Below are positions 1,045-19,194 of a stretch of 50,911 bases of DNA, piece by piece. The notes under the pieces are model-generated. The model saw only the letters and a program-made list of their open reading frames with translations, ran no database searches and was not told the DNA's origin. This stretch comes from Desulfofustis sp. PB-SRB1. GTDB taxonomy: Bacteria > Desulfobacterota > Desulfobulbia > Desulfobulbales > Desulfocapsaceae. The stretch covers positions 1-50,911 of the forward strand of contig JAEQMT010000055.1 in assembly GCA_016722945.1 (NCBI GenBank), written 5' to 3'. A program made the translations under genes and the position numbers. Every line of letters begins with the position of its first letter. The first letter of the stretch is position 1.

Positions 1045-1060
1045 GAATGAAGAGACCTGA
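965..1060 (+). CDS. Short leader ORF (31 codons) ending inside the first CRISPR repeat
   Basis: An ATG at 965 lies 7 nt after a near-perfect Shine-Dalgarno sequence (AGGAGGG, 951-957). The frame runs 31 codons through the GC-rich end of the leader and stops at a TGA formed by bases 14-16 of repeat 1. The peptide is rich in Arg, Gly and Pro and resembles nothing I know. It may be a translated leader peptide, the stump of a gene that once occupied this site, or chance. The strong ribosome-binding site is the only positive evidence. Confidence 0.25.
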   Translation: MFTHPYQPGRRFTGRNPSAGAAVREPLNEET

Positions 1061-1788: not shown

Positions 1789-3754
1789 CTTGGGTTTGCG
1801 GTCTGTAAGTACATGAATCACCGCAAACCATTGCTGTTGGTGGTTATGCGATGCATAGCAAGATTCGGCGTGTGTCTACAAATTCAAGCTGTTTTTTCCG
1901 CGTGTATGAGCTGCTTTGGTACCTTTATCTTTAATGATTTTAATATGTTTCTTGCCTCTGTTGTCACTTCGTTGCGCATAAGCACACGATACTTTAAATC
2001 AAAAAATTCTGTGATCTGCAGTGTCTCCAAATTTCGCTGGATATGGTGCCACGACATGCCGCAGGTCATTTCAGCGATCCGTTCGATAAGCAAGGCCAGT
2101 ACGCAAATTTTGACATGACTCACAATCCTTCGGGAGGCCCAGTGGTACATCGGCACCATCTTTATCTGGGTACGTTTCAACGAGCGGAAACAACGCTCGA
2201 TCACCATCAGACTCTTGTAACCGCACGCCGCATCCTCGAGACTAATGGTATCGTCGTTGGTTTCAATTACCCATTTTCCATCATACTTTGCCGCCTTACC
2301 AACGGCAGCCCGGTCAATACGAATGAGGCCACCTTTGGTGGTTCGCAGATATTTCTTGAAACGGCGTGATGCCAACAATTCAATAGCCCACTGGGCAGTT
2401 GCTGAGTGATCCTTGTGCGTGGCCAACTCAGCTTCAAGCAGCTCGATTATTAGCTGTCTGTGGCTCCGCTGCCTTTGCGCTTGTTTGGGGTTATAACAGA
2501 GGATGTAACGCCTCCGCCTCTCACCATCGCCGACGATGATCTCCTTGGCATAGAGGTTATCCTTAAATTTGGTGTAGCGGCCACGTTTACTGAGAACCTT
2601 CAAATTGATTTCAGAGATACTGGCCATACGACAGGCCAGAAGATATTTCCCACAAGCTTTGGCCAGTTCAACGCGGTTATCTTCGGAGTTCATCCCCGCA
2701 TCGGCGACAAACATTGCCCGACCCAAGTTCCAGCCTCTGAGATCGGCGCGAACTTTTTCTACCGTTGTGACATCGGCGGTATTACCCGGCAACACCCAAC
2801 TACGCACCGGGATACCATCGCGGGTCACCGCCAGAGCAACGACGACCTGCGGTGCCCAACCGCCTTCTTTACAACGGCCAAATTTACGTAATGTGGCGTT
2901 GGGGTCGGCTTCAGAATGGTCTTCAGCATCGACCTGGAAAGAAGCGGTCGTCGTATCGTAAAAGATCAGATCGACCTCCAGGTTGAAAAGGTTGGCCGTG
3001 TTGAAAAACACGGTTTGTTCAATGGTATCGATATTGGCGTGAAGCAGGTCCATCGCTTCATACATATGCCTGAGCCTGAGGCTTGCACAAGAAGGCAGGT
3101 AGACGGTGGACAGCCAGCGGTCCCATACCCCGAGTTTGGATTCGGGGTCACATAATCGGTTAGCGACCATGGCCAGAATTGCTCGTTCGTAAGGAACTTG
3201 ACTACCGGTTGCCTGTTCAATACTATTGAGCGTCTTTTTCAAACCGAGCCGTTCCCATAGGGTCTCAATGACCAACGGGCACCCCAGAGCAAACGTTTGC
3301 TTGATCTTCAGATCAGGCGGTATACCTATTGCTTCTCCCTCTGGTAGCAACACGTCTTCAGCCAATGGATCAGAGATATGCAACCCACAGACCCTGGCGA
3401 TAGATCGACACAGTCGTACCAGTTCAAGACGGTCAAGTTGGTCGGCTCTACCAAAGTTATGGATGATTTTGGCGACCGGTTTGCGAGTCTTTGGATGGCG
3501 CTCGTTGTGGGCAATCTGAAAGTACTCGACGACCGAGCCATCTTTGTTGGTGCGTTTTGTTGTTCTCAGGTACATGCTTACGTAAATAGCATGTATAGAC
3601 AGCTAATGCAAGGAAATAAATACAATTCGTGTGCCTACATATTTCAGCTCACACCTGACATTTGGCTCGATATATGTTGTTGAAATTTAGCGATTTTGAC
3701 TTATCTAATGGAGTGAATTCGACCGATTTTGTGCCTACTGACCGCAAACCCAAG
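1789..3754. mobile_element. IS1634-like insertion sequence inside CRISPR repeat 11
   Basis: The element is 1,966 bp with perfect 15-bp terminal inverted repeats (CTTGGGTTTGCGGTC at the left end and its complement at the right). It is flanked by a 5-bp direct duplication, CTGAA, at 1784-1788 and 3755-3759, both derived from the CRISPR repeat; removing the IS and one CTGAA restores an intact 35-nt repeat. The 5-bp duplication and the single large DDE transposase fit the IS1634 family. The intact inverted repeats and transposase suggest a recent insertion. Confidence 0.92.
1884..3575 (-). CDS. IS1634-family transposase
   Basis: A 563-residue DDE transposase that appears full length. The N-terminus (MYLRTTKRTNKDGSVVEYFQ) and the core 'DLIFYDTTTASFQV ... 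FVADAGMNSEDN' are typical of IS1634-type enzymes. The catalytic aspartates are probably those in FYDTTT and VADAG, and the glutamate the one in VIERCFRSLKRT near the C-terminus. It acts on the ends of its own element and lies antisense to the CRISPR array. No frameshift or internal stop is seen. Confidence 0.9.
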   Translation of the reverse strand: MYLRTTKRTNKDGSVVEYFQIAHNERHPKTRKPVAKIIHNFGRADQLDRLELVRLCRSIARVCGLHISDPLAEDVLLPEGEAIGIPPDLKIKQTFALGCPLVIETLWERLGLKKTLNSIEQATGSQVPYERAILAMVANRLCDPESKLGVWDRWLSTVYLPSCASLRLRHMYEAMDLLHANIDTIEQTVFFNTANLFNLEVDLIFYDTTTASFQVDAEDHSEADPNATLRKFGRCKEGGWAPQVVVALAVTRDGIPVRSWVLPGNTADVTTVEKVRADLRGWNLGRAMFVADAGMNSEDNRVELAKACGKYLLACRMASISEINLKVLSKRGRYTKFKDNLYAKEIIVGDGERRRRYILCYNPKQAQRQRSHRQLIIELLEAELATHKDHSATAQWAIELLASRRFKKYLRTTKGGLIRIDRAAVGKAAKYDGKWVIETNDDTISLEDAACGYKSLMVIERCFRSLKRTQIKMVPMYHWASRRIVSHVKICVLALLIERIAEMTCGMSWHHIQRNLETLQITEFFDLKYRVLMRNEVTTEARNILKSLKIKVPKQLIHAEKTA

Positions 3755-6700
3755 CTGAACTACAAAGGGATTACGACACGTTACGCTGACGCTGCTACGT
3801 TACGCTGACGCTGCTAGAATGAAGAGACCTGAACTACAAAGGGATTACGACTGTCATAATACACCTCATTTATTGTGCCCTTAATTGGGAATGAAGAGAC
3901 CTGAACTACAAAGGGATTACGACCTTTTCAAGGAACCTAATGAATAGATCATAACCAATCTGAATGAAGAGACCTGAACTACAAAGGGATTACGACCAAG
4001 TTTGGCCCCATCATCATTGAACGTTTCCCATTCGGGAATGAAGAGACCTGAACTACAAAGGGATTACGACGTTCACAGACAACTGTTGTGAGTTGTCTTT
4101 GAGTAGCCTTCGAATGAAGAGACCTGAACTACAAAGGGATTACGACTGTATTCTACAAATGAATGGTTTTCATCTTGCCACAAACGGAATGAAGAGACCT
4201 GAACTACAAAGGGATTACGACCCTTGGACCAAATCTGTATCAAGCGCCCAAGCCGTTGAATGAAGAGACCTGAACTACAAAGGGATTACGACCCGAGGAT
4301 GCTTCTTTATTCTTTTCCCGCCCTAACATGAATGAAGAGACCTGAACTACAAAGGGATTACGACCCCTTAATTGGGCGGTGGCGCATTATTGCACCATAT
4401 ACGAGAATGAAGAGACCTGAACTACAAAGGGATTACGACGTGATATCTTTAACCGGGATGCTTAATCTCATTTTTTTTCTCGAATGAAGAGACCTGAACT
4501 ACAAAGGGATTACGACGGATTCTGGTTCGCTTGTTCTTGGTCATGATGGTAGTGGAATGAAGAGACCTGAACTACAAAGGGATTACGACGCTGCCGCTAC
4601 GCTGCCGCTGTACGCTGCCGCTGTACGCGAATGAAGAGACCTGAACTACAAAGGGATTACGACTTAGTGACGCCGTGTTTTTTAGTTGCGGCAATACTTC
4701 AGGAATGAAGAGACCTGAACTACAAAGGGATTACGACAAGAACTAGGAGGACCACGTGCTATTAAAGTTGATCTTCCGAATGAAGAGACCTGAACTACAA
4801 AGGGATTACGACTTTGTGTTTTTCATTTACCATTCCCCCATGTTTGCACGAGAATGAAGAGACCTGAACTACAAAGGGATTACGACTTGAATAATGCAAT
4901 GACCTTTTCTTCGGTAATACTTTGAATGAAGAGACCTGAACTACAAAGGGATTACGACTATTCATGATGCGGCTTGCCCTTTCTGCCGGAAGATCAGAGA
5001 ATGAAGAGACCTGAACTACAAAGGGATTACGACCTTTGGTTGCCAACATGATTTAATACTTGATATATAGAATGAAGAGACCTGAACTACAAAGGGATTA
5101 CGACTCCCTGCCATGGGTAGCCATTAAACGTCGTAATGTCAGGAATGAAGAGACCTGAACTACAAAGGGATTACGACTAAGTGTCATGCCTTCCCCATTT
5201 CCTGTTTAGTTAGGGAATGAAGAGACCTGAACTACAAAGGGATTACGACTGTATTTTTCCCACGCAGCTTGACGGTCTTTGGGATCGGGAATGAAGAGAC
5301 CTGAACTACAAAGGGATTACGACGTCATATCGCGCCCAGGTATTTGTCCCACGCCTCGTGGTGAATGAAGAGACCTGAACTACAAAGGGATTACGACGTG
5401 CTAAATTCTGTAACCATCAATCACGAGGATCGCCGAATGAAGAGACCTGAACTACAAAGGGATTACGACTTTTAGTTTTGCACTTTTTAGCTCCATCTGC
5501 TGCGGAAGAATGAAGAGACCTGAACTACAAAGGGATTACGACACGACGCCTTTGCAATTTCTTCTGGTGGTATAAGTTCACCGAATGAAGAGACCTGAAC
5601 TACAAAGGGATTACGACGAGACAACTCAGTGTTATCAAGCTGTCGCTAGTATAAAAAGAATGAAGAGACCTGAACTACAAAGGGATTACGACGGGTTTTT
5701 TCGAGGGCTTTATTGCCCTCATCATTTACCTGAATGAAGAGACCTGAACTACAAAGGGATTACGACGCTATGTCAACATCTTCGTCTTCATTGCATCTGA
5801 TTGAATGAAGAGACCTGAACTACAAAGGGATTACGACGAGAGCATTTTATCCTCCCTTAGTTTACCCGGCCCACCAGGAATGAAGAGACCTGAACTACAA
5901 AGGGATTACGACCGTTCGTGATCGATCAGGTGGCGGTCTATCACCAGCGAATGAAGAGACCTGAACTACAAAGGGATTACGACGGGTGTATGGTTAGCGT
6001 AACCAAGATCACGGGCCAGAATGAAGAGACCTGAACTACAAAGGGATTACGACACGGCTTTTCTATCGCCATTTCCATGGATTAACCCCCTGAATGAAGA
6101 GACCTGAACTACAAAGGGATTACGACCCGTGTAACCATCCCATTTTTATCCTCCTTTTTAGTTTAGAATGAAGAGACCTGAACTACAAAGGGATTACGAC
6201 CCGGCAATTCACCTTCTTTATCATCATCAACATAATTGAGGAATGAAGAGACCTGAACTACAAAGGGATTACGACGTAATTATGGAAAAAACTACTTTCC
6301 CGTGTAGGAACTAAGAATGAAGAGACCTGAACTACAAAGGGATTACGACCTCGAGTCTGTGGGGTCGGCATAGCACCGGCACCCGCCAGAATGAAGAGAC
6401 CTGAACTACAAAGGGATTACGACCTTTTGCTGTTGCGCATTCAGCGTTCTGAATTCATAGAATGAAGAGACCTGAACTACAAAGGGATTACGACCTAATG
6501 CATTCATATACTCATGTACTATCTAGCGAATGAAGAGACCTGAACTACAAAGGGATTACGACGTTCTCAGTGTTATCAGTGATAAACTGAGTCACTGAGG
6601 AATGAAGAGACCTGAACTACAAAGGGATTACGACCTACACTCAGAGATAATCTAGCTTCTCTTTGTTTTCGAATGAAGAGACCTGAACTACAAAGGGATT

Positions 6701-6792
6701 ACGACGTTCATGAAAATCATCCCCCCTAAATTTTCATTGTTAACGAATGAAGAGACCTGAACTACAAAGGGATTACGACGGCTTGGTAGCGG
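3755..6792 (+). CRISPR. CRISPR array, segment B (right part of repeat 11, repeats 12-52)
   Basis: The segment begins with the last 23 nt of repeat 11 (including the duplicated CTGAA) and holds 41 complete repeats, from 3817 to the one starting at 6745, with spacers of 33-43 nt. It ends with the first 13 nt of a spacer (6780-6792) that is cut by the next transposon. Repeats are essentially invariant. Two spacers consist of internal tandem repeats: 3778-3816 is a perfect 19-bp duplication, and 4590-4628 repeats a 13-mer. Cut off from the leader by the IS, it can be transcribed only by read-through or from a promoter in the IS. Confidence 0.97.
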
Positions 6793-6916
6793 TGTTGAAT
6801 CCCAGATTATCTAAAATAAAACCAGCCTTTTTTGTCAGAATCTGTTAGCAGTGGGTGGTGACACTGCAGATTATCTTGAATTCTCGTAACGTTATTGTAC
6901 ACCCCTCGTGAGTGGT

Positions 6917-6950
6917 GGCTGCCGGGGCCGTGGACACGGCCCCGGCAGCC
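6917..6950. other. Strong GC-rich hairpin upstream of transposon genes
   Basis: A perfect 15-bp inverted repeat (GGCTGCCGGGGCCGT and its complement) surrounds a 4-nt loop, GGAC. It lies just before the first transposon gene and lacks a T-tract, so it is not a classical terminator. It could block read-through from the CRISPR array into the transposase operon or hide a ribosome-binding site. Confidence 0.6.
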
Positions 6951-6989
6951 CTCCAGGCAGGAAACCTACTTCCTGAAAGGAGTTGCCTT

Positions 6990-7496
6990 GTGGTACTGTT
7001 TGTTGCCGCATCCGTCAAGGAAATTGCTCGTCTCGGCACCGCCTACCCCTGGAATAAACCATCGTGCTGTCCCCGGTGCGGTGGACGGTTGTGGTGGCAT
7101 GGATTTGTTGTCGCCTGGTTTAGCTGCTTTTCTCATTGTGTCTATCTTCGACGTCTGTTCTGTTCGCAGTGCCGCGCCGTTCATCGGTTGAAACCACGGG
7201 GATATTGGCCCCGGTATCGCAGTTCCAGTGCTGAGATCCAGCAGGCAATTACCCACCGACAGAGCACAAAACGCTGGCGGCCCGATCTGCCGCGTTCGCG
7301 CCAACGCCAGTGGTGGCGTCGGCTAGGTCGGATGATTCGGCTGGTCTTCGGGATGTCCGCTCAGCTTACCCACCGGGAAGGATTCACTCGACTCATTGCA
7401 CGAAACATCATCCCGGTTACCCAAGCAATACACCATGACAATCGACACATCCATGACCCACCCTACCGTATTGTAGCTCTGCCCGGCGGCCTCTGA
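6990..7496 (+). CDS. Transposon-associated zinc-ribbon protein (DUF6431-like)
   Basis: I place the start at the GTG at 6990 because AAGGAG ends 7 nt before it; an upstream in-frame ATG at 6912 falls before the hairpin. The 168-residue product has a zinc-ribbon: CCPRCGG, then CSQC about 30 residues later. A basic, tryptophan-rich segment follows (KRWRPDLPRSRQRQWWRR). Small zinc-ribbon proteins of this kind often precede the transposase and ATPase in such elements and may help recognise ends or targets, though their function is unproven. The C-terminal 30 residues look weakly conserved. Confidence 0.6.
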   Translation: MVLFVAASVKEIARLGTAYPWNKPSCCPRCGGRLWWHGFVVAWFSCFSHCVYLRRLFCSQCRAVHRLKPRGYWPRYRSSSAEIQQAITHRQSTKRWRPDLPRSRQRQWWRRLGRMIRLVFGMSAQLTHREGFTRLIARNIIPVTQAIHHDNRHIHDPPYRIVALPGGL

Positions 7497-7560
7497 GCAT
7501 GGTATCGGCAGACAGACTCGGATAACCCGACTCTGATACCCCATACCCAGGAGGACGCCC

Positions 7561-8880
7561 ATGGAAGACGAAGCCTTGCGTACCGAAGTTGCCCTGTTTC
7601 GCTTCGGAGTCATCAGCGAGTTGGTTGCATCACGACTCGAACCCGGTGAGTTGACCGAACTCATCTATCAAAAAAGTGAGCAGCACTGGAACATCCCCGG
7701 CTCTCATCGCACCCGGGTGTCGGCGGCCACCGTCAGGCGCTGGCTGCGACTCTATGAGCGGGGCGGCCGCGAGCTCAGTGCCTTGATGCCGGCCAGGCGG
7801 TGCGACCGGGGATGCTCTCGCACGGTCGATGATGAGACTCGCGGCGCCCTGATCCGGTTGCGCAAAGAACAACCAGGCTGGCCGGTCTGGCGGCTGGTGC
7901 AAGCACTTGCTGAAAAACAAGTAATCACACCCGGCACGACGCTGAGTCTCTCCACCGCCTATCGCATCCTCACCCAGGAAAAGCTTGACAGCGCCGCTCT
8001 GCACAAGCGAGCCCCGGTGGATCGACGGCGTTACGAGGCCGAATTTCCCAACGATATCTGGCAATCAGATATCATGCACGGCCCCTTGGTAAAAGGCACC
8101 GGCAAGCGGCGCAAAGCATATCTGATCGCCATTCTTGACGATCATTCCCGGCTCATTACCCACGGCGAGTTCTTCTGTTCGGAAAAACTCGAATCCTGGC
8201 TCCAGGTCTTTCGCCAGGCCCTGCTTACCAGAGGACTGCCGCGTAAACTCTACGTGGACAACGGCGCCGCCTTTCGCTCACGCCATCTCGAACGAATCTG
8301 TGCCTCGCTCGGCATCGCCCTGATCCACAGCCGCCCCTATACCCCACAGGGGCGCGGCAAAATCGAGCGGTTCTTTCGCACCGTCAGATCCCGGTTTATC
8401 TCGCGCCTCGATGACCAACCCGACACCCTTGCTCAGCTCAATGACCGGTTCCAGCACTGGCTGGAAACGGACTATCTGCATCGGGTTCATTCGGTTACCG
8501 CGATGACCCCGTTCAACCGCTTTGCCGCTCATCTTGAAATGATTCGCGAAGCACCCGCTGAGCTTGCTGATCACTTCCGTAAAGAAGTGCGGCGCCGGGT
8601 CAGCAAAGACCGGGTCGTCACCATCGACGGACGACTCTTCGAAGCCCCGGTTCAATTGATCGGTGAACGGGTCACGCTCTTGTTCAACGATGATCGGCCG
8701 GAACGGGTCGAAATCTTCTGTAAGGGGCAGTCGTGTGGTCTGCTCAGGCCGGTTGATCTGGTGGTCAACACCCTGGTGAAACGAACCAAAAACGGCGGTG
8801 AAGAGATGCTCGCCAAGACCACGACATGCCGGCCGGGACGGCTGCCCTTTGATCCTGGCGCCGACGGAGGTGGATCATGA
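7561..8880 (+). CDS. DDE transposase (rve/Mu-type integrase core)
   Basis: A 439-residue protein with an N-terminal helix-turn-helix region (SAATVRRWLRLYERGG), an integrase core and a Mu-type C-terminal beta-barrel. The likely catalytic triad is the Asp in WQSDIMHG (about residue 169), the Asp in YVDNGAAF (about 232) and the Glu in GRGKIERFFRTV (about 267). A good ribosome-binding site (CAGGAGG) precedes the ATG. Its stop overlaps the start of the ATPase gene (ATGA), so the two are translationally coupled. This is the TnsB/TniA/MuA-like enzyme of the element. Confidence 0.85.
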   Translation: MEDEALRTEVALFRFGVISELVASRLEPGELTELIYQKSEQHWNIPGSHRTRVSAATVRRWLRLYERGGRELSALMPARRCDRGCSRTVDDETRGALIRLRKEQPGWPVWRLVQALAEKQVITPGTTLSLSTAYRILTQEKLDSAALHKRAPVDRRRYEAEFPNDIWQSDIMHGPLVKGTGKRRKAYLIAILDDHSRLITHGEFFCSEKLESWLQVFRQALLTRGLPRKLYVDNGAAFRSRHLERICASLGIALIHSRPYTPQGRGKIERFFRTVRSRFISRLDDQPDTLAQLNDRFQHWLETDYLHRVHSVTAMTPFNRFAAHLEMIREAPAELADHFRKEVRRRVSKDRVVTIDGRLFEAPVQLIGERVTLLFNDDRPERVEIFCKGQSCGLLRPVDLVVNTLVKRTKNGGEEMLAKTTTCRPGRLPFDPGADGGGS

Positions 8881-9680
8881 GCTATCGAAGTTTCTTCGGT
8901 CTCAGTGCGGAGCCCTTCAGGGCTGATCTCGCCCTTGAGCAGGTGCTCACCACCCCGGAATTGCTCGGCGTCCAGCAGCGCCTCGACTATGTCCTGCGCC
9001 TGGGCGCCATCATGCTCGTCACCGGCGAAGTCGGCGCCGGCAAATCAACCGCCGTGCGCTACAGCTGTGGAACGCTTCATCACTCTCGGTACAAGACCCT
9101 GTGGGTCACCGCTTCAGCCGGCTCTATTCTCGAACTCTACCGCCAGCTCCTGGCCGAGCTTGACATCGCTACCGCATCGTCCTCACGGGCCGTATTGACC
9201 CGGCTGATCAGAGCACAGATCGACAGCCTGGTCGCCGGTAAAAAGCAGCAACCCCTGCTGATTATCGATGAGGCCTCACTGCTGCGCCTCGATGTCTTTG
9301 CCGAGCTCCATACCATCACCCAGTTCGAAGCCGACTCCAAACCGTGGCTGCCCATGGTGCTGGCCGGCCAGAATAACCTGGCGGAAAACCTGCTCTACCG
9401 TACCGCCATACCGCTGGCTTCTCGCATTGTTGCCAGAAGTCATCTGCCGGCGGTCACCCGCCAGGCGATGGGTGAGTATCTGGACCATCATCTCACCATT
9501 GTCGGAATAAAAAACTCACCCTTTACCGAACAGGCGGTAACCGCCATTCATCAGGGCTCCGGCGGGCTCTTTCGCAAAGCCAACCATCTTGCCCGCGGCG
9601 CCATGATCGCCGCTGCCGCCGAAAAAACACAAGAGGTAACAGCGGAGCATGTTCGGTGTGCCGACTCGGAGCTGCTGTAA
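8877..9680 (+). CDS. ExeA-like AAA ATPase (TniB/MuB-type transposition helper)
   Basis: A 267-residue AAA+ ATPase starting MSYRSFFGLSAEPF, the hallmark N-terminus of the ExeA-like group. Walker A is GEVGAGKST (about residues 51-59) and Walker B is LLIIDEAS (about 129-136). In Mu/Tn7-type elements such ATPases choose target DNA and activate the transposase. Its start overlaps the transposase stop by 4 nt. Full length, with no lesions. Confidence 0.85.
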   Translation: MSYRSFFGLSAEPFRADLALEQVLTTPELLGVQQRLDYVLRLGAIMLVTGEVGAGKSTAVRYSCGTLHHSRYKTLWVTASAGSILELYRQLLAELDIATASSSRAVLTRLIRAQIDSLVAGKKQQPLLIIDEASLLRLDVFAELHTITQFEADSKPWLPMVLAGQNNLAENLLYRTAIPLASRIVARSHLPAVTRQAMGEYLDHHLTIVGIKNSPFTEQAVTAIHQGSGGLFRKANHLARGAMIAAAAEKTQEVTAEHVRCADSELL

Positions 9681-9708
9681 TTCAACCATCAAACACAAGG
9701 AGCACATC

Positions 9709-9870
9709 ATGAAACCTGAACAGACCATCCAGTTTCTTGCCGAATTGCTTGAACTGGCTGAAGAACTAAACCGTATCGTCAAACAGTATTGCCGACTCGT
9801 AACCACTGATCAATCTGGACACGGACACTACGCAGAGAAGAAGGACTCAGAATATGATGCATTGTTCTGA
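9709..9870 (+). CDS. Small acidic protein of the transposon
   Basis: A 53-residue frame preceded by AAGGAG at good spacing, 28 bp after the ATPase. The product is mostly helix-forming (FLAELLELAEELNRIVKQY) with a charged tail. I do not recognise a family. It is co-oriented with the transposition genes and is probably the last gene of that operon; a regulatory or accessory role would be a guess. Confidence 0.5.
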   Translation: MKPEQTIQFLAELLELAEELNRIVKQYCRLVTTDQSGHGHYAEKKDSEYDALF

Positions 9871-9902
9871 GTAAATCTGTACTCTAGTCGTGCCGAGATG
9901 CT

Positions 9903-9939
9903 CCCCCCGGGCGGCGCTACGCGACGCACGCCCGGGGGG
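9903..9939. terminator. GC-rich hairpin after the transposon operon
   Basis: CCCCCCGGGCG at 9903-9913 pairs perfectly with CGCCCGGGGGG at 9929-9939. It lies 33 bp after the small ORF and may end transposon transcription, mirroring the hairpin at the left end. There is no clear T-tract. Confidence 0.45.
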
Positions 9940-10014
9940 GACGCCTGCAAAATATTCTGATATCACTGGTAAGATATTCAGACAAATGCTGTGCATTTAA
10001 TGTGAGAATCAACA

Positions 10015-10774
10015 AGCGGGCTTGGTAGCGGTGGTGGTGCTAGTGAATGAAGAGACCTGAACTACAAAGGGATTACGACGGGTTAATTTGTTGCTCGACA
10101 TATGCCTCTGCCTGCTCAAGAATGAAGAGACCTGAACTACAAAGGGATTACGACGGTGTGTGGGGGAACTAAATTGATTCTGGTCATCTGAATGAAGAGA
10201 CCTGAACTACAAAGGGATTACGACTGACCCTGGCCGGCCTTGATCAACGAGCCATTCAGTTACGAATGAAGAGACCTGAACTACAAAGGGATTACGACCT
10301 ATATAATCTAGGCCATTGGTGCACACCAACTTCAACGAATGAAGAGACCTGAACTACAAAGGGATTACGACGCCACACGAAGGTCCTGGGAAATTGCTGA
10401 AACAGGGGAATGAAGAGACCTGAACTACAAAGGGATTACGACAGTGCCAAAGAAATTTTTTCAGACATCCCAAAACCAGAATGAAGAGACCTGAACTACA
10501 AAGGGATTACGACTGCTTTTTACCAAGTTTTCCTTATTCATTTTCTCCTCCTGAATGAAGAGACCTGAACTAAAAAGGGATTACGACCATTAAAACCGGC
10601 GGCGGCCAGGGTCACGGCGTTCAAATTGAATGAAGAGACCTGAACTACAAAGGGATTACGACCATCAGGGTTGTGAGCACAAATAGTTTTGTGCTCAACC
10701 TCGAATGAAGAGACCTGAACTACAAAGGGATTACGACTGTCGAGTTGTCGCTAGTTTAGAAATCTCAAAGAGAA
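10015..10774 (+). CRISPR. CRISPR array, segment C (rest of spacer 52, repeats 53-62)
   Basis: After the duplicated AGCGG comes the remaining 25 nt of spacer 52, then ten repeats starting at 10045, 10120, 10190, 10264, 10337, 10408, 10479, 10553, 10628 and 10703. The repeat at 10553 carries a C-to-A change (CTAAAAAGG). The last spacer (10738-10771) and the first 3 nt of the next repeat end at the IS21-like element. With the pieces rejoined, spacer 52 is 38 nt and contains GCTTGGTAGCGG twice. Confidence 0.97.
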
Positions 10775-10890
10775 TGTTACCGGCGCTCCCAAGATGCATA
10801 GAAACGGCGGTTTAAAGATGCAGCTGTTTCACGCCTCCTAATCGTCGCCAGGAAATCTCTTTCCGGCGGCGATCTTTCAGCGTCATCGAG

Positions 10891-11640
10891 TCACCCTTCC
10901 ACCTGTTCTTTCATGCGATAACTTTTTCCTTCAATGACAACGGTATCGGCATGGTGCAACAGCCTGTCCAGGATTGCCGATGTCAGCGTTGCATCATTGT
11001 TGAAGATGGCCGGCCAGTCCTTGTAGGCGCGATTCGAAGTGATCAGTATCGCTCCTTTCTCGTAGCGCTTGCTGATCACCTGGAAGAGTAGATCAGCGCC
11101 GCGTTTATCGATGGGCAGATAGCCGATCTCATCAAGGATTAACAACGCGGGCGTGAGGTACTGCTTCAAGGAGATTTTGAGCTGGCCGGCAGCCTGCGCG
11201 GCGGCCAGGGTGTTGATAACATCCACCGCCGTGGCAAACAACACGGGGAGACCACGCAGACAGGCCTCATAGCCGATGGCGGTGGCAAGGTGGGTCTTGC
11301 CAAGCCCCACCCCGCCAAGCAGTATGGCGTTGGCCTTGTGAGCGATAAATTCGAGGCGAAACAGCTGCTTGAGTTGCATCTCATTGATCTTTTCCGGCCA
11401 ATTGAACTGAAATTGCTCCAGGGTTTTTTTTACCGGAAAACGGGCCATCCTGATCCGGCGTTCAATACCATTGTCCCAGCGCAGATCGGTTTCTCCTTGG
11501 ACAAGCTGTTGAAAGTACTCGTGGTGGCTCCAGCCTTTAGCTGCCGCGGTCTTGGCCAGAGCTTCGTGATTGTGTTGCATGAACCGCAGCTTGAGATAGT
11601 CGAGTTGTTCACTGATGTGGCGTGGTTTGTTATGCATCAT
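10891..11640 (-). CDS. istB: IstB-like transposition ATPase
   Basis: A 249-residue AAA+ ATPase. Walker A is GGVGLGKTH (about residues 108-116) and Walker B is LLILDEIGYLP (about 168-178); the sensor region ILITSNRAYKDWP follows. The length is normal for IstB. It overlaps the end of istA by 11 nt, the usual IS21 arrangement. IstB assembles on target DNA and stimulates the IstA transposase. Confidence 0.93.
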   Translation of the reverse strand: MMHNKPRHISEQLDYLKLRFMQHNHEALAKTAAAKGWSHHEYFQQLVQGETDLRWDNGIERRIRMARFPVKKTLEQFQFNWPEKINEMQLKQLFRLEFIAHKANAILLGGVGLGKTHLATAIGYEACLRGLPVLFATAVDVINTLAAAQAAGQLKISLKQYLTPALLILDEIGYLPIDKRGADLLFQVISKRYEKGAILITSNRAYKDWPAIFNNDATLTSAILDRLLHHADTVVIEGKSYRMKEQVEG

Positions 11641-13099
11641 GGTCCCCCTTTGCGTAGATGCTTATATCCGGTTCACTTATTTCAAGATCAAGCAGATCGG
11701 CGGCCCTGGTAAGATGCAGGGCGCCGGGCGGCCGGTTGAAGTGCTTCCGCTGTTCGATCAGGTTGGCGATATAATCGCAGGAGAAGGCACGGTATTCCAA
11801 CGCATCCTCCATGGCGCGTGCCACCTGCTCAGGGGAATAGATCTCGGTTAAGCCGACAATCTGCCGGATATGGTGCATAATGTTGAGTTTACGTTCGACA
11901 AGCCCCTGGTAGTATCGCTCGGCATGGGGCGATACGGTGAGAAAGCGCATGAGTAATTTCTGGTCTCTGGCTTTTTTGCGCTGCTGCAGTAAGGCCTTGG
12001 GATGATCGGGATGTTCCGTGTCTCTATGGCGGTCGTAACTCCTGGTGTGCCGGGCGATAAGCGTGTGGTCGTGATAGATGCATATCCGGTCCGGATAGGT
12101 CTTCATCAGCAAGGACGTGCCGGCATATTCGGCTGGCACTGAATAGCGGTTGGTATCCAGGCTCACCCGGAACTGCCTGGATGCCCGCACCGGGGTGAGT
12201 GTCGCGATATCGTATAGCTGGGCAGGAAGCGGGGAAAGATATCGTGTCTCGTGCGCGAACATATCGTGTGGCTTTTTATGGGTCTCCCCATGAACCCGCA
12301 CATTTGCAATCGTAGCCAGCCAGTGGGTCGCGGCGGGGTTGATCGTCTTGAAGTCAGCCGGCTCGAGGCCCGCCAGAAAGTTCTTTTTTACGTAGCCGAC
12401 ACCATGTTCAACGATACCTTTTTCGTTGCCCTTGCCGACGCCGCAGGGGACGATGGTAAATCCGTAATGAGTGGCAAAGTCCAGATACTTCGGGTTCAGC
12501 ACGGGCGCCTGTCCGGTGATTCGTTTCAAGACCGCCGATTTGAGATTATCGACCATGATCCGGGAAGGAACACCGCCGAAACAGTGCAATGCATTTTGGT
12601 GGCAGCCAAGAAAGTGCTCCATGGTCTGGGAAACGGTGAACTCAAGATACATCATCCGGCTATAGCAGAGTACCATGACAAAGAAGCTCAAGCGCCGCCG
12701 GGTAGAGCCGACCCTGATTGAACCGTACGAGCCCCAGTCCACCTGGGCGCATTCACCGGGGGCAAAGCGTAGTTTCAGGTATGGCTTGTGCCGTTTCGGC
12801 CTGATGGCGCGTACGTAATCCTTGACGATGGTATAGCCGCCATCGAAGCCTTGTTCTCTGATTTTCTGGTAGATTTGGACGGCGCTGTATGGATATCGTT
12901 CCACCATTGAGACGATATCGCGTTTATACGGATCGAGCTTGCTTGCTCGGTTTGCCGACTGTTTCGGCTGGAAACGTTTTTTCTGTAGCCAAGCGGCGAC
13001 GGTGCGTGCATCGAGTCCGAGCTTTGTGGCGATCTGGCCGGCTTTCAATCCTTCCCGCCGGCATGCCTGTATCCGGCAAAACTGTTCATAATCGATCAT
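11630..13099 (-). CDS. istA: IstA-like transposase (IS21 family)
   Basis: A 489-residue DDE transposase with an N-terminal helix-turn-helix (EGLKAGQIATKLGLDARTVAAWL) and an rve core. Likely catalytic residues are the Asp in AQVDWGSYG, the Asp in RIMVDNLKSAV and the Glu in GIVEHGVGYVKK. Full length. It overlaps the next upstream gene of the element by 4 nt. Confidence 0.93.
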   Translation of the reverse strand: MIDYEQFCRIQACRREGLKAGQIATKLGLDARTVAAWLQKKRFQPKQSANRASKLDPYKRDIVSMVERYPYSAVQIYQKIREQGFDGGYTIVKDYVRAIRPKRHKPYLKLRFAPGECAQVDWGSYGSIRVGSTRRRLSFFVMVLCYSRMMYLEFTVSQTMEHFLGCHQNALHCFGGVPSRIMVDNLKSAVLKRITGQAPVLNPKYLDFATHYGFTIVPCGVGKGNEKGIVEHGVGYVKKNFLAGLEPADFKTINPAATHWLATIANVRVHGETHKKPHDMFAHETRYLSPLPAQLYDIATLTPVRASRQFRVSLDTNRYSVPAEYAGTSLLMKTYPDRICIYHDHTLIARHTRSYDRHRDTEHPDHPKALLQQRKKARDQKLLMRFLTVSPHAERYYQGLVERKLNIMHHIRQIVGLTEIYSPEQVARAMEDALEYRAFSCDYIANLIEQRKHFNRPPGALHLTRAADLLDLEISEPDISIYAKGDHDA

Positions 13100-13482
13100 C
13101 GCGCCCCTCCTCCCAGCTGCTGCAGGATCTGCCCAACTGACGAGATTTCTTGATCAGCTGGTGCCGCTGTGCTTCGACAATCCAGGGCCAGTACCTGGTA
13201 GAGCGGGCATTGATAGGCGATCAGGTGATGGCGGATCAGCGTTTCTCTGGCCTGGGTCAGGACGGCACTATCCATGGTAAGCCGCTTGCCCAGAGTGGTA
13301 TCGCTGTAATAGCTCAGCCCCTGGTGATCACTTACCGTCACCAGGAACAGATACAGGGCTGCTGCCTGGTGGCTGAGATGATCTATGTAGCGTTGTTGTA
13401 CCAGGCGGTGATCGACCCAGCTGAACTGCTCCGGAATCGCTCGGACCAAATGAGTGTGGATGGGGTGTTTGTGTACCGTCAT
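13096..13482 (-). CDS. IS21-associated winged-helix-like protein
   Basis: I choose the ATG at 13482 because AGGAGG ends 5 nt before it; a longer frame to 13584 has no such signal. The 128-residue product starts MTVHKHPIHTHLVRAIPEQFSWVDHR. Its segment 'SHQAAALYLFLVTVSDHQGLSYYSDTTLGKRL' looks like a winged-helix or replication-initiator-type DNA-binding region. It is coupled to istA by a 4-nt overlap. The function within the element is unknown; regulation of transposition is a reasonable guess. Confidence 0.65.
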   Translation of the reverse strand: MTVHKHPIHTHLVRAIPEQFSWVDHRLVQQRYIDHLSHQAAALYLFLVTVSDHQGLSYYSDTTLGKRLTMDSAVLTQARETLIRHHLIAYQCPLYQVLALDCRSTAAPADQEISSVGQILQQLGGGAR

Positions 13483-13966
13483 GACGACCTCCTGTGGTGG
13501 GTGATGATTCTTTGAGAATATCAAACCCCAATTGTTGCAGGCGGAGGCCGGTGTGTGCGATGTCATCTTGTAACAGTGAACCACTTAACTGTGCCAATAA
13601 TCCCACCAGAACAACATGATAGTTGGTTAAGACATCTTGTAACGGTGATTTCGTTACTGGTGAGATATCATCTTGTTTTGATTGGGTATTGTCGCACCAG
13701 TGATCTTGTAACGCAGTCTGCTTTACGGGTGCTTTTTTCCAGTACCCCGGATTGAGCCGGCGCCACTGTTGCACTCGCTGGGTGTTTACCAGGCCGCGGA
13801 AGTAGTTCCGGTTCTCTTTTTTAGCGAGCCATTTTTTCTGGCTGGCAGCCTTGCTCGCTTGTTTGCAGCCGGGGTCCCGGCAGTACCGCTGCTTGTGGGT
13901 ATTGCGGTGGTCGGCACTGAATAATTCCCCGCAGTTCTTGCACGTACGTCGTTGTAGTCGTCCCAT
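13328..13966 (-). CDS. IS21-associated zinc-finger protein
   Basis: The first gene of the IS21-like operon. The N-terminus has a zinc-binding pattern (CKNCGELFSADHRNTHKQRYC, then DPGCK), followed by a basic region (KKWLAKKENRNYFRGL). The frame overlaps the next gene by about 155 nt, and its last 50 residues are Pro/Ser/Gly-rich and look like out-of-frame readout. I infer that the original stop near 13500 was lost by a small indel, so the tail is probably not native. Confidence 0.6.
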   Translation of the reverse strand: MGRLQRRTCKNCGELFSADHRNTHKQRYCRDPGCKQASKAASQKKWLAKKENRNYFRGLVNTQRVQQWRRLNPGYWKKAPVKQTALQDHWCDNTQSKQDDISPVTKSPLQDVLTNYHVVLVGLLAQLSGSLLQDDIAHTGLRLQQLGFDILKESSPTTGGRHDGTQTPHPHSFGPSDSGAVQLGRSPPGTTTLHRSSQPPGSSPVSVPGDGK

Positions 13967-14150
13967 CTCCTGAAGTCCTCCTCAGGAGAAGATGTACCGC
14001 TGATCAACCTAAACAGGGAGTAAAACAGCAAGAACAGAGAAGAAAGAAGAAGAAGATGATTGTATGATAGTGATCAGGAAGAAAAAGAAGAAGACGGAGG
14101 ATGCATTTTCAAATCGCCGCGCTAGGTACAAATTCAGAACGCCGATGACA

Positions 14151-15334
14151 GAGAATGAAGAGACCTGAACTACAAAGGGATTACGACTTCAGATATGACA
14201 GCACCCGCTTATTATTGATGCGCGAATGAAGAGACCTGAACTACAAAGGGATTACGACCTCGAATAGCATTTAACGTATCCTTTGAAGCAAAGGGGAATG
14301 AAGAGACCTGAACTACAAAGGGATTACGACGTTTAGGATGCGGATTGCCTGCCGGGTCATCTTTATCGAATGAAGAGACCTGAACTACAAAGGGATTACG
14401 ACTTGTAAAGTATTCCATTAAATGGCCTATTTGTACCTAGAATGAAGAGACCTGAACTACAAAGGGATTACGACACATTTGAGTACCCGTTGCACAAGCA
14501 ATCACAACGGGAATGAAGAGACCTGAACTACAAAGGGATTACGACGAGGCGTCAGCCAGTCCGATTTCCCGGAGATATTCTACGGAATGAAGAGACCTGA
14601 ACTACAAAGGGATTACGACTTAGAAATCTCAAAGAACGAAGTGTTAGCTCTGCTACCCACGAATGAAGAGACCTGAACTACAAAGGGATTACGACATCAA
14701 TGTGCCACTGTTTAATATCGTTGTTTTTTGAATGAAGAGACCTGAACTACAAAGGGATTACGACAATTCTTCCATTTCATCATAATACCTCCTTTTTCAT
14801 TTGGAATGAAGAGACCTGAACTACAAAGGGATTACGACCCTGTGGTTCGTTCGGGCTTTATTGCCCTCATCATTTGAATGAAGAGACCTGAACTACAAAG
14901 GGATTACGACGCAACGACCACCATGTATCTTCGTTTGACTGAAGAATGAAGAGACCTGAACTACAAAGGGATTACGACGGCCAAGGTCTCTCGTGTTTTC
15001 GGCACCCTTGGCGAATGAAGAGACCTGAACTACAAAGGGATTACGACCAAACCCTTCCGGTATCTCGTCCAGCACCTCAAACGAATGAAGAGACCTGAAC
15101 TACAAAGGGATTACGACCACTGATTTTCCCCTTGACGACAATCGCCGCGTAATCGGGGAATGAAGAGACCTGAACTACAAAGGAATTACGACCAGTACGC
15201 CGCAAACGTCCTTCCCTTCAACTGCCCGAATGAAGAGACCTGAACTACAAAGGGATTACGACCACCCATGATGGCGGCGGGATGATAGTCGAATAGTAGG
15301 AATGAAGAGACCTGAACTACAAAGGAATTATAAC
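14151..15334 (+). CRISPR. CRISPR array, segment D (leader-distal; repeats 63-79)
   Basis: Seventeen repeats from 14153 to 15300, with spacers of 33-41 nt. The repeat at 15158 has one change (AAAGGAATTACGAC), and the final one at 15300 has two (GGAATTATAAC). Such decay is typical of the oldest, leader-distal end and confirms array polarity. Spacers 14620-14660 and 14839-14875 share long stretches with spacers in other segments. The array ends 147 bp before cas1. Confidence 0.97.
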
Positions 15335-15364
15335 AGTTTAGACAGCCAGCTTTGATAGGTTTTT

Positions 15365-15481: not shown

Positions 15482-16636
15482 GTGAATATCTATGTAACCA
15501 CGCAAGGCGCCCGCATTATTCGCGAAGGTCGTCATCTTCTGGTGAAAAAGGGTGAGGACACCTACCACACTCTGTTTGTGGAAAAGCTCAAACAAGTGAT
15601 GCTGTTTGGCAGCATCACCATCTCGCCGGCCGCCCGAGCGATGTTATTGAAACATCAGGTCGATACCATTTTTTTTCGCAAAGATGGCCGCTATGTGGGG
15701 CGCTACGCCACCCCCGAACCAAAAAATATCATGCTACGCCGACGTCAATTCACCCTCCTGGACAACCCTGAATTCGGCCTGACTTTCTGTCGGACTGTCG
15801 TGCTCGGCAAGCTAACCAGCATGACGAGCCTGTTGATGCGTATCTCTCGCACCAAAAAACACAAAGAACCGCGCACTAAAGCAAAACAGATTCGTGCCTT
15901 GTATCCCGCCATTGCACAGGCAAAATCGGTGGAGTCGTTGCGCGGTTATGAGGGGCGCGGCAGTGCCGCTTATTTCGGCGTCCTGCGATGGGGTCTCAAC
16001 GACAATTTCGACTTTAACCGCCGAGTCAGGCGGCCGCCCACCGACCCGGTGAACGCGGTTCTTTCCTTGCTCTATACATTTCTGTTCAATCGGGTATATG
16101 CTGCCATTAGAACCGCCAATCTCGACCCATATCCGGCGTTTCTTCATGTGCCCGATTACGGCAGATTTTCCCTGGTGATGGATCTTATGGAGGAGTTCAG
16201 GGTCATCGTTGTTGATACACTGGTATTGTCATTATTTAATCTGAAGATTTTGCAGCACGACGACTTTATCACCGAAGAACCGCCACCACTAAGCGAAGAA
16301 AATCAGGCGCCGACACCGGACGTAACCGGTGATCCGTTTGGATTGATGAGTGGTATTAACGCCGGTGAACTGTTCGACGTGCCGCCACAACGCATGGCCG
16401 ACACAGTCGTGGAGCATGAGCTCGAGGCGGGCCGTGGTAAATGGCCGGTAAAGCTAAAGCCTTCGGCGTTTGGACGAGTGATCGAGAATTTTGAACGCAA
16501 GCTCACCACCGAGTTCCACTACCTGCCTGAGGACCGTAAGATCACCTACAACGAGGCGTTAACCGCCCAAGCTGGCCAGTATAGAAAACTGGTTGAAGGC
16601 GCCACTGCCACCTATGAACCGCTGACTCTGCGATGA
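15482..16636 (+). CDS. cas1: CRISPR-associated endonuclease Cas1
   Basis: Cas1 is the integrase that inserts new spacers together with Cas2. The 384-residue protein starts at a GTG preceded by GGAGG. The conserved metal-binding residues are visible: Glu157 in YEGRGSAAYF, His222 in FLHVPDYGR, and Asp234/Glu237 in MDLMEEFR. It is longer than a typical 320-340-residue Cas1 because of a Pro/Glu-rich insertion at about residues 265-305. There is no reverse-transcriptase or Cas6 fusion. Its stop overlaps the cas2 start (ATGA), so the two are co-translated. It stands at the leader-distal end of the array, in the same direction. Confidence 0.95.
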   Translation: MNIYVTTQGARIIREGRHLLVKKGEDTYHTLFVEKLKQVMLFGSITISPAARAMLLKHQVDTIFFRKDGRYVGRYATPEPKNIMLRRRQFTLLDNPEFGLTFCRTVVLGKLTSMTSLLMRISRTKKHKEPRTKAKQIRALYPAIAQAKSVESLRGYEGRGSAAYFGVLRWGLNDNFDFNRRVRRPPTDPVNAVLSLLYTFLFNRVYAAIRTANLDPYPAFLHVPDYGRFSLVMDLMEEFRVIVVDTLVLSLFNLKILQHDDFITEEPPPLSEENQAPTPDVTGDPFGLMSGINAGELFDVPPQRMADTVVEHELEAGRGKWPVKLKPSAFGRVIENFERKLTTEFHYLPEDRKITYNEALTAQAGQYRKLVEGATATYEPLTLR

Positions 16637-16908
16637 ACACCGTGGTGGTATACGACATCACCGATGATAAACGACGCAACCGGTTGCGAAAATTTTTAAA
16701 AGAGCTTGGCATCCGCTCGCAAAAATCGGTCTTTGAATGTCGCCTCGATACACGAGAGGTTGCTGAAATACGCCACTACTGTGCCGAAAATCTTGACCTT
16801 GTCGAAGACAGCGTTCGTATCTACCGGGTGTGTCGGTTGTGTATGGGCAAAGCGGTGGTGCTGGGAAAAGGAATCACATTTTCGCAACTTGACTGGGTGA
16901 TCGTATAA
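16633..16908 (+). CDS. cas2: CRISPR-associated protein Cas2 (first copy)
   Basis: A 91-residue Cas2 with the ferredoxin-like start NTVVVYDITDDKRRNRLRKFL, the conserved Asp8 after the first strand, and the pattern 'SVFECRLDTREVAEI'. Cas2 bridges the two Cas1 dimers during spacer integration. It overlaps cas1 by 4 nt and abuts the second cas2. It has a C-terminal VCRLCMGKAVVLG segment with a CxxC pair. Confidence 0.95.
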   Translation: MNTVVVYDITDDKRRNRLRKFLKELGIRSQKSVFECRLDTREVAEIRHYCAENLDLVEDSVRIYRVCRLCMGKAVVLGKGITFSQLDWVIV

Positions 16909-17189
16909 TGAAGATGCTGGCCGTCTACGATATCGCTGAAACAAAACGGCTGAACCGGGTTGCAAAAATTCTCAAGGATTATGGTGTACGAGTGCAGTAT
17001 TCTAAATTTGAGATAGACCCCGTACGTAGTTCCGCATTTACCGTTTTACAGGAGAGAATCAACGAGGTGATTGACCCGGAAGTTGACGGTGTCAAATTTA
17101 TTCCTTTGTGCCGCCGATGCCTGGCAACAATCGAGATTATTGGTTGCGGCACCTATGTGGACCCGGATGCAGAATACTATATTTTGTAG
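16908..17189 (+). CDS. cas2: CRISPR-associated protein Cas2 (second, divergent copy)
   Basis: A 93-residue Cas2 starting MKMLAVYDIAETKRLNRVAKIL, with the conserved Asp in VYDI and 'VQYSKFEIDPV' in place of the usual SVFE motif. Its ATG shares one base with the stop of the first cas2. The two copies are clearly different sequences rather than a recent duplication, although both keep a CRRC/CRLC pair near the C-terminus. Two cas2 genes behind one cas1 suggest a heteromeric integration complex or specialised roles. Confidence 0.92.
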   Translation: MKMLAVYDIAETKRLNRVAKILKDYGVRVQYSKFEIDPVRSSAFTVLQERINEVIDPEVDGVKFIPLCRRCLATIEIIGCGTYVDPDAEYYIL

Positions 17190-17338
17190 ATCGAAAAACA
17201 TTACCGCCCGTCGACTACCAGCGCGAGCCGGTAAAGACCGCAACCTTGCAGTTTTTCCGCAAACTGGTCTATCCGGTTACAGTGCAATTCATTTGAAGTT
17301 TTCTCTGAATAGTGCACCCAGTTTGGGAGGTAGTGACC

Positions 17339-17965
17339 ATGAGACTTCATTCGTATGTGGTGGCCCACGACACCGGCTTCGCGCCGAACCCGTTTTGGGG
17401 CTTTTGTACCCTGGCTACTTGCAAACCGGTTATTCGTCGCACCGCAACTATCGGCGACTGGGTTGTCGGCATCAGTCCGAAACGGCGGGGAAATCGAGTT
17501 GTCTTTGCCATGCTCGTTGATGAAATACTCGATTATGTCAGCTATTACCGTGATCATCGCTTTGCCTGCAAAATACCAGTCTATTCCAAAAACGGCGTAA
17601 TCTGGAAGGCTGGGGACAATATCTATAAACCGCTGGCAAACGGTACATTTCGGCAATTACGCTCAATGCATTCCCGTGGTGAACGTGAAAATCCGCAGAC
17701 CAAGGCCCATGATTTAAGCGGTGAAAACATACTTATTGCGAAAAAATTTCATTATTTTGGGGCATCGGGCCCGGAACTGCCCTTGCATCTGACGGCGCTA
17801 AAGGTAGGCCGGGCTCATAAAAACCACTTTACGCCTGAGACAATTGCAAATTTTGTTAATTTTATTGCGAATTTTCCCGCGGGCTTAATCAGCAAGCCAA
17901 CACATTGGCCGGCAACAGATAAATCATGGCAACGTGTTATAAGCGATGAAACTGGTACTCAGTAG
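17339..17965 (+). CDS. Nmad2-like protein (nucleotide-modification-associated domain 2)
   Basis: I start the gene at the ATG at 17339, 8 nt after GGGAGG; a frame from 17312 lacks such a signal. The 208-residue product begins RLHSYVVAHDTGFAPNPFWG and continues 'CTLATCKPVIRRTATIGDWVVGI', which I recognise as the Nmad2 pattern. Nmad families were described by comparative genomics as linked to enzymes that modify DNA bases; their biochemical activity is not known. The gene follows the second cas2 by 150 bp in the same direction and overlaps the Nmad3-like gene by 20 nt, so the pair is translated together. Identification is from memory of the family pattern. Confidence 0.62.
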   Translation: MRLHSYVVAHDTGFAPNPFWGFCTLATCKPVIRRTATIGDWVVGISPKRRGNRVVFAMLVDEILDYVSYYRDHRFACKIPVYSKNGVIWKAGDNIYKPLANGTFRQLRSMHSRGERENPQTKAHDLSGENILIAKKFHYFGASGPELPLHLTALKVGRAHKNHFTPETIANFVNFIANFPAGLISKPTHWPATDKSWQRVISDETGTQ

Positions 17966-18803
17966 GAAAGGCTTTGACTCGTCAACCGGCGGCGTACCCA
18001 GCCCGATCTTTCCAGACGGGTCCATGGTTTCGCTACCGATCCCTGATAAAACATCGGCGATAACCTATGGCGACATTCGCCATAAAGGTGCGCCTCTCGC
18101 CCCGGTGGTTGCACACCTCACTACCGGTCGCATTGCACCTCACTATGGGGCACACCTGGACCCCGACGTCGTTGCCCCGGCGCTGGTTCGACAACCAGGA
18201 TGGCGGCCACTTTTCGGGCAAACCGGGCCAGCCCAGGGGCATTTGAAAAACCACTGCGTCGGGGCCGGAGATTTGTTTCTTTTCTTTGGCCTGTTTCGTC
18301 GCCTAGAAGATCAAGCAAAGAGCCTCTGGTGGGCGGCCGACGCCGCCCCGTGTCATGTACTGTGGGGTTGGTTGCAAGTAGCCGAAGTGATTCAAATCGA
18401 TCAGTTGCCAGCTGAGACAATAAAATGGGCACGATACCATCCGCACTTTCAACGCCGCGGCGGTGCGAACAACACCCTGTATATCGCACGAAAACGGCTG
18501 ATGCTTGCATACCAAAATTGCGCTGATATACTAGGCGCCGGGGTGTTCCCGAACTTTTCGTTAAATCTTCAACTCACAGAGACAGGATCGCGCAGGGCCA
18601 GTCTGTGGAGTCTGCCGCCCTGGTTTAACCCGAGCTCCAGACGGCCACCGCTTACCTATCACGCAAATACTCAACGTTGGAAAAAAATGGCCGGCACCGT
18701 AAAACTATTGGCTGCCTCCCGCGGCCAGGAGTTCATTCTCGATTGCGACCACTACCCGGAAGCGATAAGTTGGGTTTATGAACTCATTTCTACGAATCAA
18801 TAA
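17946..18803 (+). CDS. Nmad3-like protein (nucleotide-modification-associated domain 3)
   Basis: A 285-residue protein starting MKLVLSRKGFDSSTGGVPSPI, an N-terminus I associate with Nmad3; 'FPDGSMVSLPIPD' follows. The middle has GHLKNHCVGAGDLFLFFGLFR, suggesting a compact alpha/beta domain. It overlaps the Nmad2-like gene by 20 nt. Nmad2 and Nmad3 are known to occur as a pair. A role in making or reading modified nucleotides is inferred from the family's reported associations; no modification enzyme (methylase, TET/JBP, glycosyltransferase) lies in this window. Confidence 0.62.
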   Translation: MKLVLSRKGFDSSTGGVPSPIFPDGSMVSLPIPDKTSAITYGDIRHKGAPLAPVVAHLTTGRIAPHYGAHLDPDVVAPALVRQPGWRPLFGQTGPAQGHLKNHCVGAGDLFLFFGLFRRLEDQAKSLWWAADAAPCHVLWGWLQVAEVIQIDQLPAETIKWARYHPHFQRRGGANNTLYIARKRLMLAYQNCADILGAGVFPNFSLNLQLTETGSRRASLWSLPPWFNPSSRRPPLTYHANTQRWKKMAGTVKLLAASRGQEFILDCDHYPEAISWVYELISTNQ

Positions 18804-18902
18804 ATGTCCTCTATAGAGAACGTTGAGAAATGATAATTTTCATACGTTGAGGCATGAAAGAAATCGCCCAAACACTAAAAATTCCTATTCTGGAGCTGTG
18901 AA

Positions 18903-19124: not shown

Positions 19125-19194
19125 AGGCTATCGCAGCAAACCAAAATCAACGGCCGCTCAGTGATTAACCGGCAAAAATGACTACTGGAAAGAT

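Follow-up and report, generated by a model that had tools for sequence, protein, structure and literature searches.

The window analyzed here is the whole of a 50,911-bp contig of Desulfofustis sp. PB-SRB1, one of the 71 contigs of a 4.69-Mb genome. On its forward strand, downstream of the cas1 and two cas2 genes of a clustered regularly interspaced short palindromic repeats (CRISPR) locus, lie two genes of the nucleotide-modification-associated families Nmad2 and Nmad3, which are the subject of this study. Their reading frames share the same strand and overlap by 20 bp, and the pair as a whole spans positions 17339–18803 (Table 1). An earlier note, made from the sequence alone, had described two overlapping genes in one direction 150 bp past the second cas2, and the measured gap of 149 bp agrees with that description. 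The start given to the feature, 16908, turned out to be that of the second cas2 itself (16908–17189) and was corrected to the start of Nmad2.

The Nmad2–Nmad3 pair and its distribution

The resemblance to the two families was confirmed by hidden Markov model searches, in which both proteins matched their profiles over nearly the full length and far above the curated cut-offs. Nmad2 scored 200.4 bits against PF18753 (Pfam gathering score, 26.1; profile positions 3–197 of 200), and Nmad3 scored 265.3 bits against PF18754 (gathering score, 27; profile positions 1–247 of 247). Each family had one match across the whole 4.69-Mb genome. The open reading frame (ORF) list placed the start of Nmad2 at a GTG at 17312; the ATG at 17339 was preferred because of a GGAGG shortly upstream of it and the conserved N-terminus. 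This GGAGG is a ribosome-binding-site-like sequence of the pair's own. Promoter and terminator scans gave no clear excess over shuffled sequence (4 vs. 4.9 and 8 vs. 6.9, respectively), and neither Rfam nor a tRNA scan gave a match in the window.

Table 1. Coordinates of the Nmad pair and of the neighboring CRISPR features in the window.
Feature	Position	Strand	Description
CRISPR repeats	1045..15352	+	One repeat, 77–78 copies, arranged in four blocks: ~1045–1733, 3755–6779, 10042–10755, 14150–15352
cas1	15482..16636	+	PF01867, E 5.2e-82; neighbor, judged to lie outside the pair's system
First cas2	16633..16908	+	PF09827, E 8e-21; neighbor
Second cas2	16908..17189	+	PF09827, E 2.3e-19; neighbor; falls within the coordinates of the earlier note
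Gap, second cas2 to Nmad2	17190..17338	+	149 bp; Shine–Dalgarno-like GGAGG near the 3′ end; no CRISPR repeat remnant
Nmad2	17339..17965	+	208 amino acids; PF18753, E 3e-59; predicted YTH/EVE/ASCH (PUA-like) fold
Nmad3	17946..18803	+	285 amino acids; PF18754, E 7.5e-79; predicted EVE/YTH/ASCH-like fold with extra segments

Recurrence of the pair was analyzed at 41 Nmad3 loci including that of the window, with up to ~10 kb of DNA per side and many loci shortened by contig ends. These loci covered 33 of the 34 sampled Nmad3 genomes (all except G583) and five loci from other searches; one of them (L076), whose Nmad3 was not recovered with the profile built here, was kept in the count. At 14 of these 41 loci, Nmad2 lay directly upstream of Nmad3 and its frame ran into that of Nmad3 for 4–23 nucleotides, the first profile-matched position of Nmad3 being taken as its start. 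The order was reversed (Nmad3/Nmad2) on one Burkholderia plasmid, and an ATPase-like gene separated the two in genome G198. Counted by genome, the two families occurred together in 14/34 sampled Nmad3 genomes, G198 included. In the sample of the window's phylum, 9 of 395 genomes carried Nmad2, nine carried Nmad3, and five carried both (P = 2e-7, or P = 5e-6 without the window's own genome; relatedness ignored in both). These results demonstrate that Nmad2–Nmad3 is a genuine recurrent two-gene module.

The module is also scattered. Nmad3 was found in 9/395, 13/294 (one below the cut-off), 7/299, and 5/199 genomes of four phylum samples, a total of 34/1187, and the true rate is lower because the sample centers were chosen for carrying the gene. 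Neither Nmad2 nor Nmad3 was present in the three sampled genomes of the window's own taxonomic family (0/3). Of the pairs collected, the closest (64 and 55% identity) was that of G310, a genome from a different family in the phylum that has no Cas1 match. In a tree of Nmad2 built from 24 of 37 matched segments at 32 loci (13 short ones dropped), where good support was limited to 6 of 20 inner branches, the window Nmad2 was placed beside that of G310. The patchy presence suggests an accessory module.

The CRISPR neighborhood of the pair

The cas1-cas2-cas2 calls of the earlier note were borne out (Table 1), and the CRISPR setting of the pair is ordinary. A Csx20 gene lies at 383–790, close to the contig edge. 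A second, related CRISPR locus on another contig of the same genome (L150), whose cas1 is 65% identical to that of the window, is of type III-B and encodes Cmr1, Cas10, Cmr3, Cmr4, Cmr5, Cmr6, Csx20, a CARF-HEPN protein, cas1, cas2, and cas2, followed by the array. Since Csx20 precedes the CARF-HEPN gene and then cas1 in that locus, the window array occupies the expected site of the CARF-HEPN gene. Another relative (L155) encodes Csm3, a type III-A protein.

The four repeat blocks of the window are separated by three stretches with transposase-like ORFs, the genes being named by eye: a 563-amino-acid transposase-like ORF (1884–3575), an integrase-like and an ATPase-like ORF (7561–9680), and IS21-like istA/istB ORFs (10891–13099). 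On the other side of the Nmad pair, ~0.75 kb past its end, a ParA-like ATPase gene and a gene with AlbA_2 and HATPase_c_4 domains overlap by 4 bp on the minus strand (19558–21821).

The earlier note had suggested that, next to an adaptation module, the pair could mark self DNA or sense modified phage DNA. Recurrence of the neighborhood bears on whether the pair works with that module. Besides the window, 17 places at least 52% identical to its cas1 were found in 385 genomes, and 15 of them were fetched (G083 and G108 were omitted). The order cas1-cas2-cas2 was present in all 15, among them the other type III locus of this genome, and neither Nmad2 nor Nmad3 was found in any of the fetched stretches (0/15). 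Three of these (L153, L163, and L164) hold <400 bp between the second cas2 and the contig end, so that the clean test of the pair's absence is 12/12. Two consecutive cas2 genes are thus a regular feature of this type III adaptation cassette, whereas the Nmad pair is not.

The search from the side of Nmad3 gave the same picture. Searched at E ≤ 0.01 with profiles made from the cassette, which might overlook a highly divergent cas1, the other Nmad3 loci showed cas1 or cas2 in 0/40, and no CRISPR array occurred in the DNA around each locus (0/40). A CRISPR-like repeat flagged at one of them (L102) was rejected as short tandem repeats. With the Pfam Cas1 profile, 18 other Nmad3-bearing genomes were searched, namely the eight others of the window's phylum sample and 10 picked for having the pair. 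No Cas1 match was present in 10 of the 18 (several of them drafts); in the eight genomes with Cas1 above the cut-off, it lay on other contigs only in seven, leaving the distance undefined, and ~580 kb off on the same contig in one (G699). The scan for recurrent cas-Nmad2-Nmad3 neighborhoods thus found none in the sample, where Nmad pairs elsewhere never neighbored a CRISPR locus, the outcome that the earlier note had named as a refutation, and the adjacency looks like a one-off among the loci examined.

A function as an auxiliary of CRISPR adaptation, in which the pair would tell modified from unmodified DNA for Cas1–Cas2 or mark self DNA, has the position in its favor: the genes are on the same strand, 149 bp downstream, at the site that the array occupies in the genome's other locus. 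Against it stand the three counts above (0/15, 0/40, and 10/18) and the pair's own ribosome-binding-site-like sequence, and we regard such a function as very improbable. A CRISPR partnership was accordingly rejected as the principal interpretation on those counts. CRISPR repeat remnants were also sought beside the pair (17190–20600); the best agreement with the 35-bp repeat was 18/35 on the plus strand and 17 on the minus strand, and single-base shuffles averaged 18.6. The CRISPR neighborhood offers no basis for inferring what the pair does.

Predicted folds and a candidate mechanism

AlphaFold models were built from shallow alignments of 10 sequences for Nmad2 (predicted local distance difference test [pLDDT], 87.8; predicted template modeling score [pTM], 0.86) and nine for Nmad3 (pLDDT, 82.2; pTM, 0.85; the other four of five models averaged 79 to 65). 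For the Nmad2 model, 49 of the 50 structures listed were YTH domains, with many entries for one and the same protein (two, 4r3h and 4r3i, were assigned from chain numbering), and one was MJECL36, with Z scores of 7.7 to 6.5. The best solved match of the Nmad3 model was MJECL36 (Z 7.1; root-mean-square deviation, 4.6; 137 residues aligned), followed by PH1033 (6.9), the McrB N-domain (6.8; 6.4 with 5-methylcytosine DNA), VcaM4I (6.0), a YTH domain (5.7), and THYN1 and an ASCH protein (5.6). MJECL36, PH1033, and the McrB domain are presumably EVE-like. For Nmad2, an ASCH protein ranked first among viral models (E 0.008), and Foldseek listed ASCH, EVE-like, and DrmAB structures without significance. 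A PUA-like fold is likely for both proteins, as judged from the models.

The best structural likeness of both predicted folds is to readers of the EVE/YTH/ASCH/PUA-like group, such as the McrB N-domain, VcaM4I, THYN1, YTHDC1, and ZmASCH. Unlike these, the Nmad pair has no detectable sequence similarity to the group and no fused nuclease, and Nmad3 is about twice as long as such domains, with invariant residues of its own. A search of solved structures by sequence gave no convincing relative (best E values, 0.57 and 0.11). A pocket of EVE domains is believed to accommodate a modified base that has flipped out (PMC7641849). In the structure-match lists, YTH domains appear with N6-methyladenosine and THYN1 with 5-methylcytosine DNA. 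The predicted folds would be compatible with a sensor of modified DNA.

Residue conservation was high in both families. Nmad2 C28, K29, R33, and D125 were kept in 17/17 sequences, and Nmad3 R7, D11, H70, D72, D109, H167, Q261, and E262 were invariant or had a single exception among 36 to 43 sequences. Conservation this strict hints at chemistry besides binding, and two PUA-like proteins encoded in overlapping frames suggest a reader complex.

Taken together, we read the pair as a self-standing, scattered accessory module that binds, and perhaps processes, a modified nucleobase and that came to lie beside the CRISPR locus by insertion, a reading to which we give a probability of roughly 0.55. 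In the proposed mechanism, the PUA-like pocket of Nmad2 would bind a modified nucleobase or nucleotide, and Nmad3, with its unusually invariant set of polar residues, would bind or chemically process that same base. The two are probably partner proteins, as their overlapping frames suggest. The pair would have been inserted beside a type III CRISPR adaptation cassette and would not be a working part of it.

Several findings weigh against this reading. The best Z scores from VIA, 7.1 for Nmad3 and 7.7 for Nmad2, fall within the tool's typical 7–8 for models without a clear match, and Foldseek returned nothing at E ≤ 0.001 for either model; the argument for the fold is for this reason drawn from the uniformity of the lists and from the same answer given by two separate proteins. 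A Pfam scan of 10 Nmad2 and nine Nmad3 sequences showed no other family at a meaningful score, YTH, EVE, and ASCH included, in a search whose HMMER filters discard most matches above 0.1. Comparison of the Nmad2 and Nmad3 profiles gave an hhalign probability of 0.6%, and a relationship between the two families by this route was set aside as unsupported. No adjacent Nmad2 was seen in 20 of the 34 sampled Nmad3 genomes, a count that takes in fragments and contig ends, and Nmad3 may therefore act by itself. In the window, no effector, nuclease, or toxin was seen with the pair, and for this single strain a CRISPR role is conceivable.

Neighborhoods elsewhere and candidate roles

In other genomes, chromosomal pairs and lone Nmad3 genes lay among unrelated genes, for example, pdxJ, enolase, and tatD. 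In a census of neighbor proteins, 131 of 140 were scanned (one of L029, four of L073, and four of L075 were omitted), giving raw counts without a background set for the best 25 of 87 PADLOC and of 92 Pfam families. No PADLOC family matched more than 3/131 proteins. Modification genes were not a leading family among the 131 neighbors, within the best 25 of 92 Pfam families, and none lies beside the window pair. Single neighbors of other Nmad3 loci matched models for AbiE, viperin, NsnC, PDC-S06, and a type I methyltransferase. The window Nmad2 and Nmad3 themselves matched no PADLOC family at E ≤ 0.1.

Nmad2 without Nmad3 was found on plasmids and viral contigs. Among eight scanned proteins encoded just upstream of lone Nmad2 genes, four were ThsB-type TIR proteins (L059, L063, L111, and L112) and four had no TIR match (L060, L062, L110, and L113). 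Proteins with MazG_C and of the UDG superfamily were encoded downstream of Nmad2 in L059, L110, and L112. The Nmad2 of L061 is the same as that of L111. Coordinates of these neighborhoods are 3621–8434 in L059, 3527–4660 in L063, 7514–8642 in L111, 6584–9476 in L112, and 1619–4007 in L110. Their Nmad2 proteins are 34–41% identical to that of the window, and in the Nmad2 tree, they were more clustered than in shuffles (three changes vs. a mean of 8.0; 0/500 as low), and the forms may be separate clades. It is possible that these TIR/Nmad2/MazG_C/UDG neighborhoods constitute a defense operon. No Nmad3 was seen there, whereas the window pair has no adjacent TIR, MazG, or UDG gene; its neighbors are cas2 and, for Nmad2, Nmad3, with the ParA-like and AlbA_2 genes further on.

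Viral contigs also carried both families. With the window Nmad2 as a single query, none was found, and alignment queries recovered five Nmad2 and nine Nmad3 contigs. On one strand of L109 (5558–11061) lie genes for a thymidylate-synthase-like protein, dCMP deaminase, Nmad2, a polymerase-like protein (by eye), and a DNA methylase, with two other ORFs between. The thymidylate-synthase-like gene resembles genes that phage records label thymidylate synthase or deoxyuridylate hydroxymethyltransferase, and the gene set might be what is expected for a virus with modified DNA. Nmad3 lay by a Pfam-checked ParB-DNA methylase gene in two viral contigs, being adjacent to it in L114 (2870–5136) and ~2 kb off in L118 (4836–8951). 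In another (L115, 3320–5585), Nmad3 was beside a ParB-like/DNA-methylase gene, identified by resemblance. Among named phage records, tblastn gave no match to the window Nmad2 or Nmad3, nor to one Nmad2 and one Nmad3 from viral contigs; a control search with the thymidylate-synthase-like protein matched 1566 records. None of seven proteins matched PHROGs (0/7).

In an alternative reading, the pair would be an anti-phage unit that detects or restricts base-modified phage DNA, in a defense island shared with the CRISPR locus. The adjoining array and nearby AlbA_2 gene, the lone Nmad2 genes with TIR, MazG_C, and UDG companions on plasmids and viral contigs, the patchy presence, and the single defense-related neighbors of Nmad3 all point in this direction. 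A 2026 defense-prediction paper also names an NMAD domain of unspecified type, both where it discusses the systems it predicts and in the legends of Figures 3C and 6F (PMC13092281). However, many pairs and lone Nmad3 genes are located among ordinary genes, the raw PADLOC counts were low and no PADLOC model matches either protein, no nuclease or toxin lies beside the pair in the window, and the TIR/MazG/UDG neighborhoods lack Nmad3, with a TIR match in only half of the upstream proteins. Of the suggestion in the earlier note of an independent defense unit, the first part, an independent unit, is favored by the evidence, and the second, a role in defense, is a plausible but less probable alternative.

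The location among housekeeping genes would suit a different target, with the pair recognizing or hydrolyzing the cell's own modified nucleoside or damaged base, be it in DNA, in RNA, or in the nucleotide pool, independently of phages. The strongly invariant polar residues suggest an enzyme, and ASCH-fold proteins include the ribonuclease ZmASCH (PMC5615036) and YqfB-type amidohydrolases (PMC9599836). The rarity of Nmad3 in samples centered on its carriers, the absence of both families from the same-family genomes, and the occurrence on plasmids and in viral contigs are unlike core metabolism, and this role in metabolism or repair appears less probable than defense. Both alternatives differ from the module reading preferred here in the target and are compatible with it. 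A more specific scenario, still less probable than either, is a two-protein system made of PUA-like domains only, in which one protein would read and the other act on the modified base, giving immunity against phages that DNA modification shields from both CRISPR and restriction and complementing the adjoining CRISPR locus in this genome.

To our knowledge, the name of the Nmad families is derived from genomic context, and we know of no activity assigned to them; the names reportedly originated in a 2013 paper. The Pfam descriptions of Nmad2 and Nmad3 likewise give an association and not an activity, to which this analysis adds the pairing, the predicted fold, and the non-recurring CRISPR neighborhood. 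These are new in the sense that, by title and abstract opening, no paper among the matches listed dealt with the pair, its fold, or a CRISPR link; the matches included papers on Nmad5, which is another family, and phage papers that mention such a domain.

The predicted relation to YTH, EVE, and ASCH domains gives both families a testable hypothesis, namely, which modified base is bound. It would also make sense of finding the families close to genes for DNA modification in viral contigs and, on plasmids, close to those for TIR, MazG, and UDG proteins.

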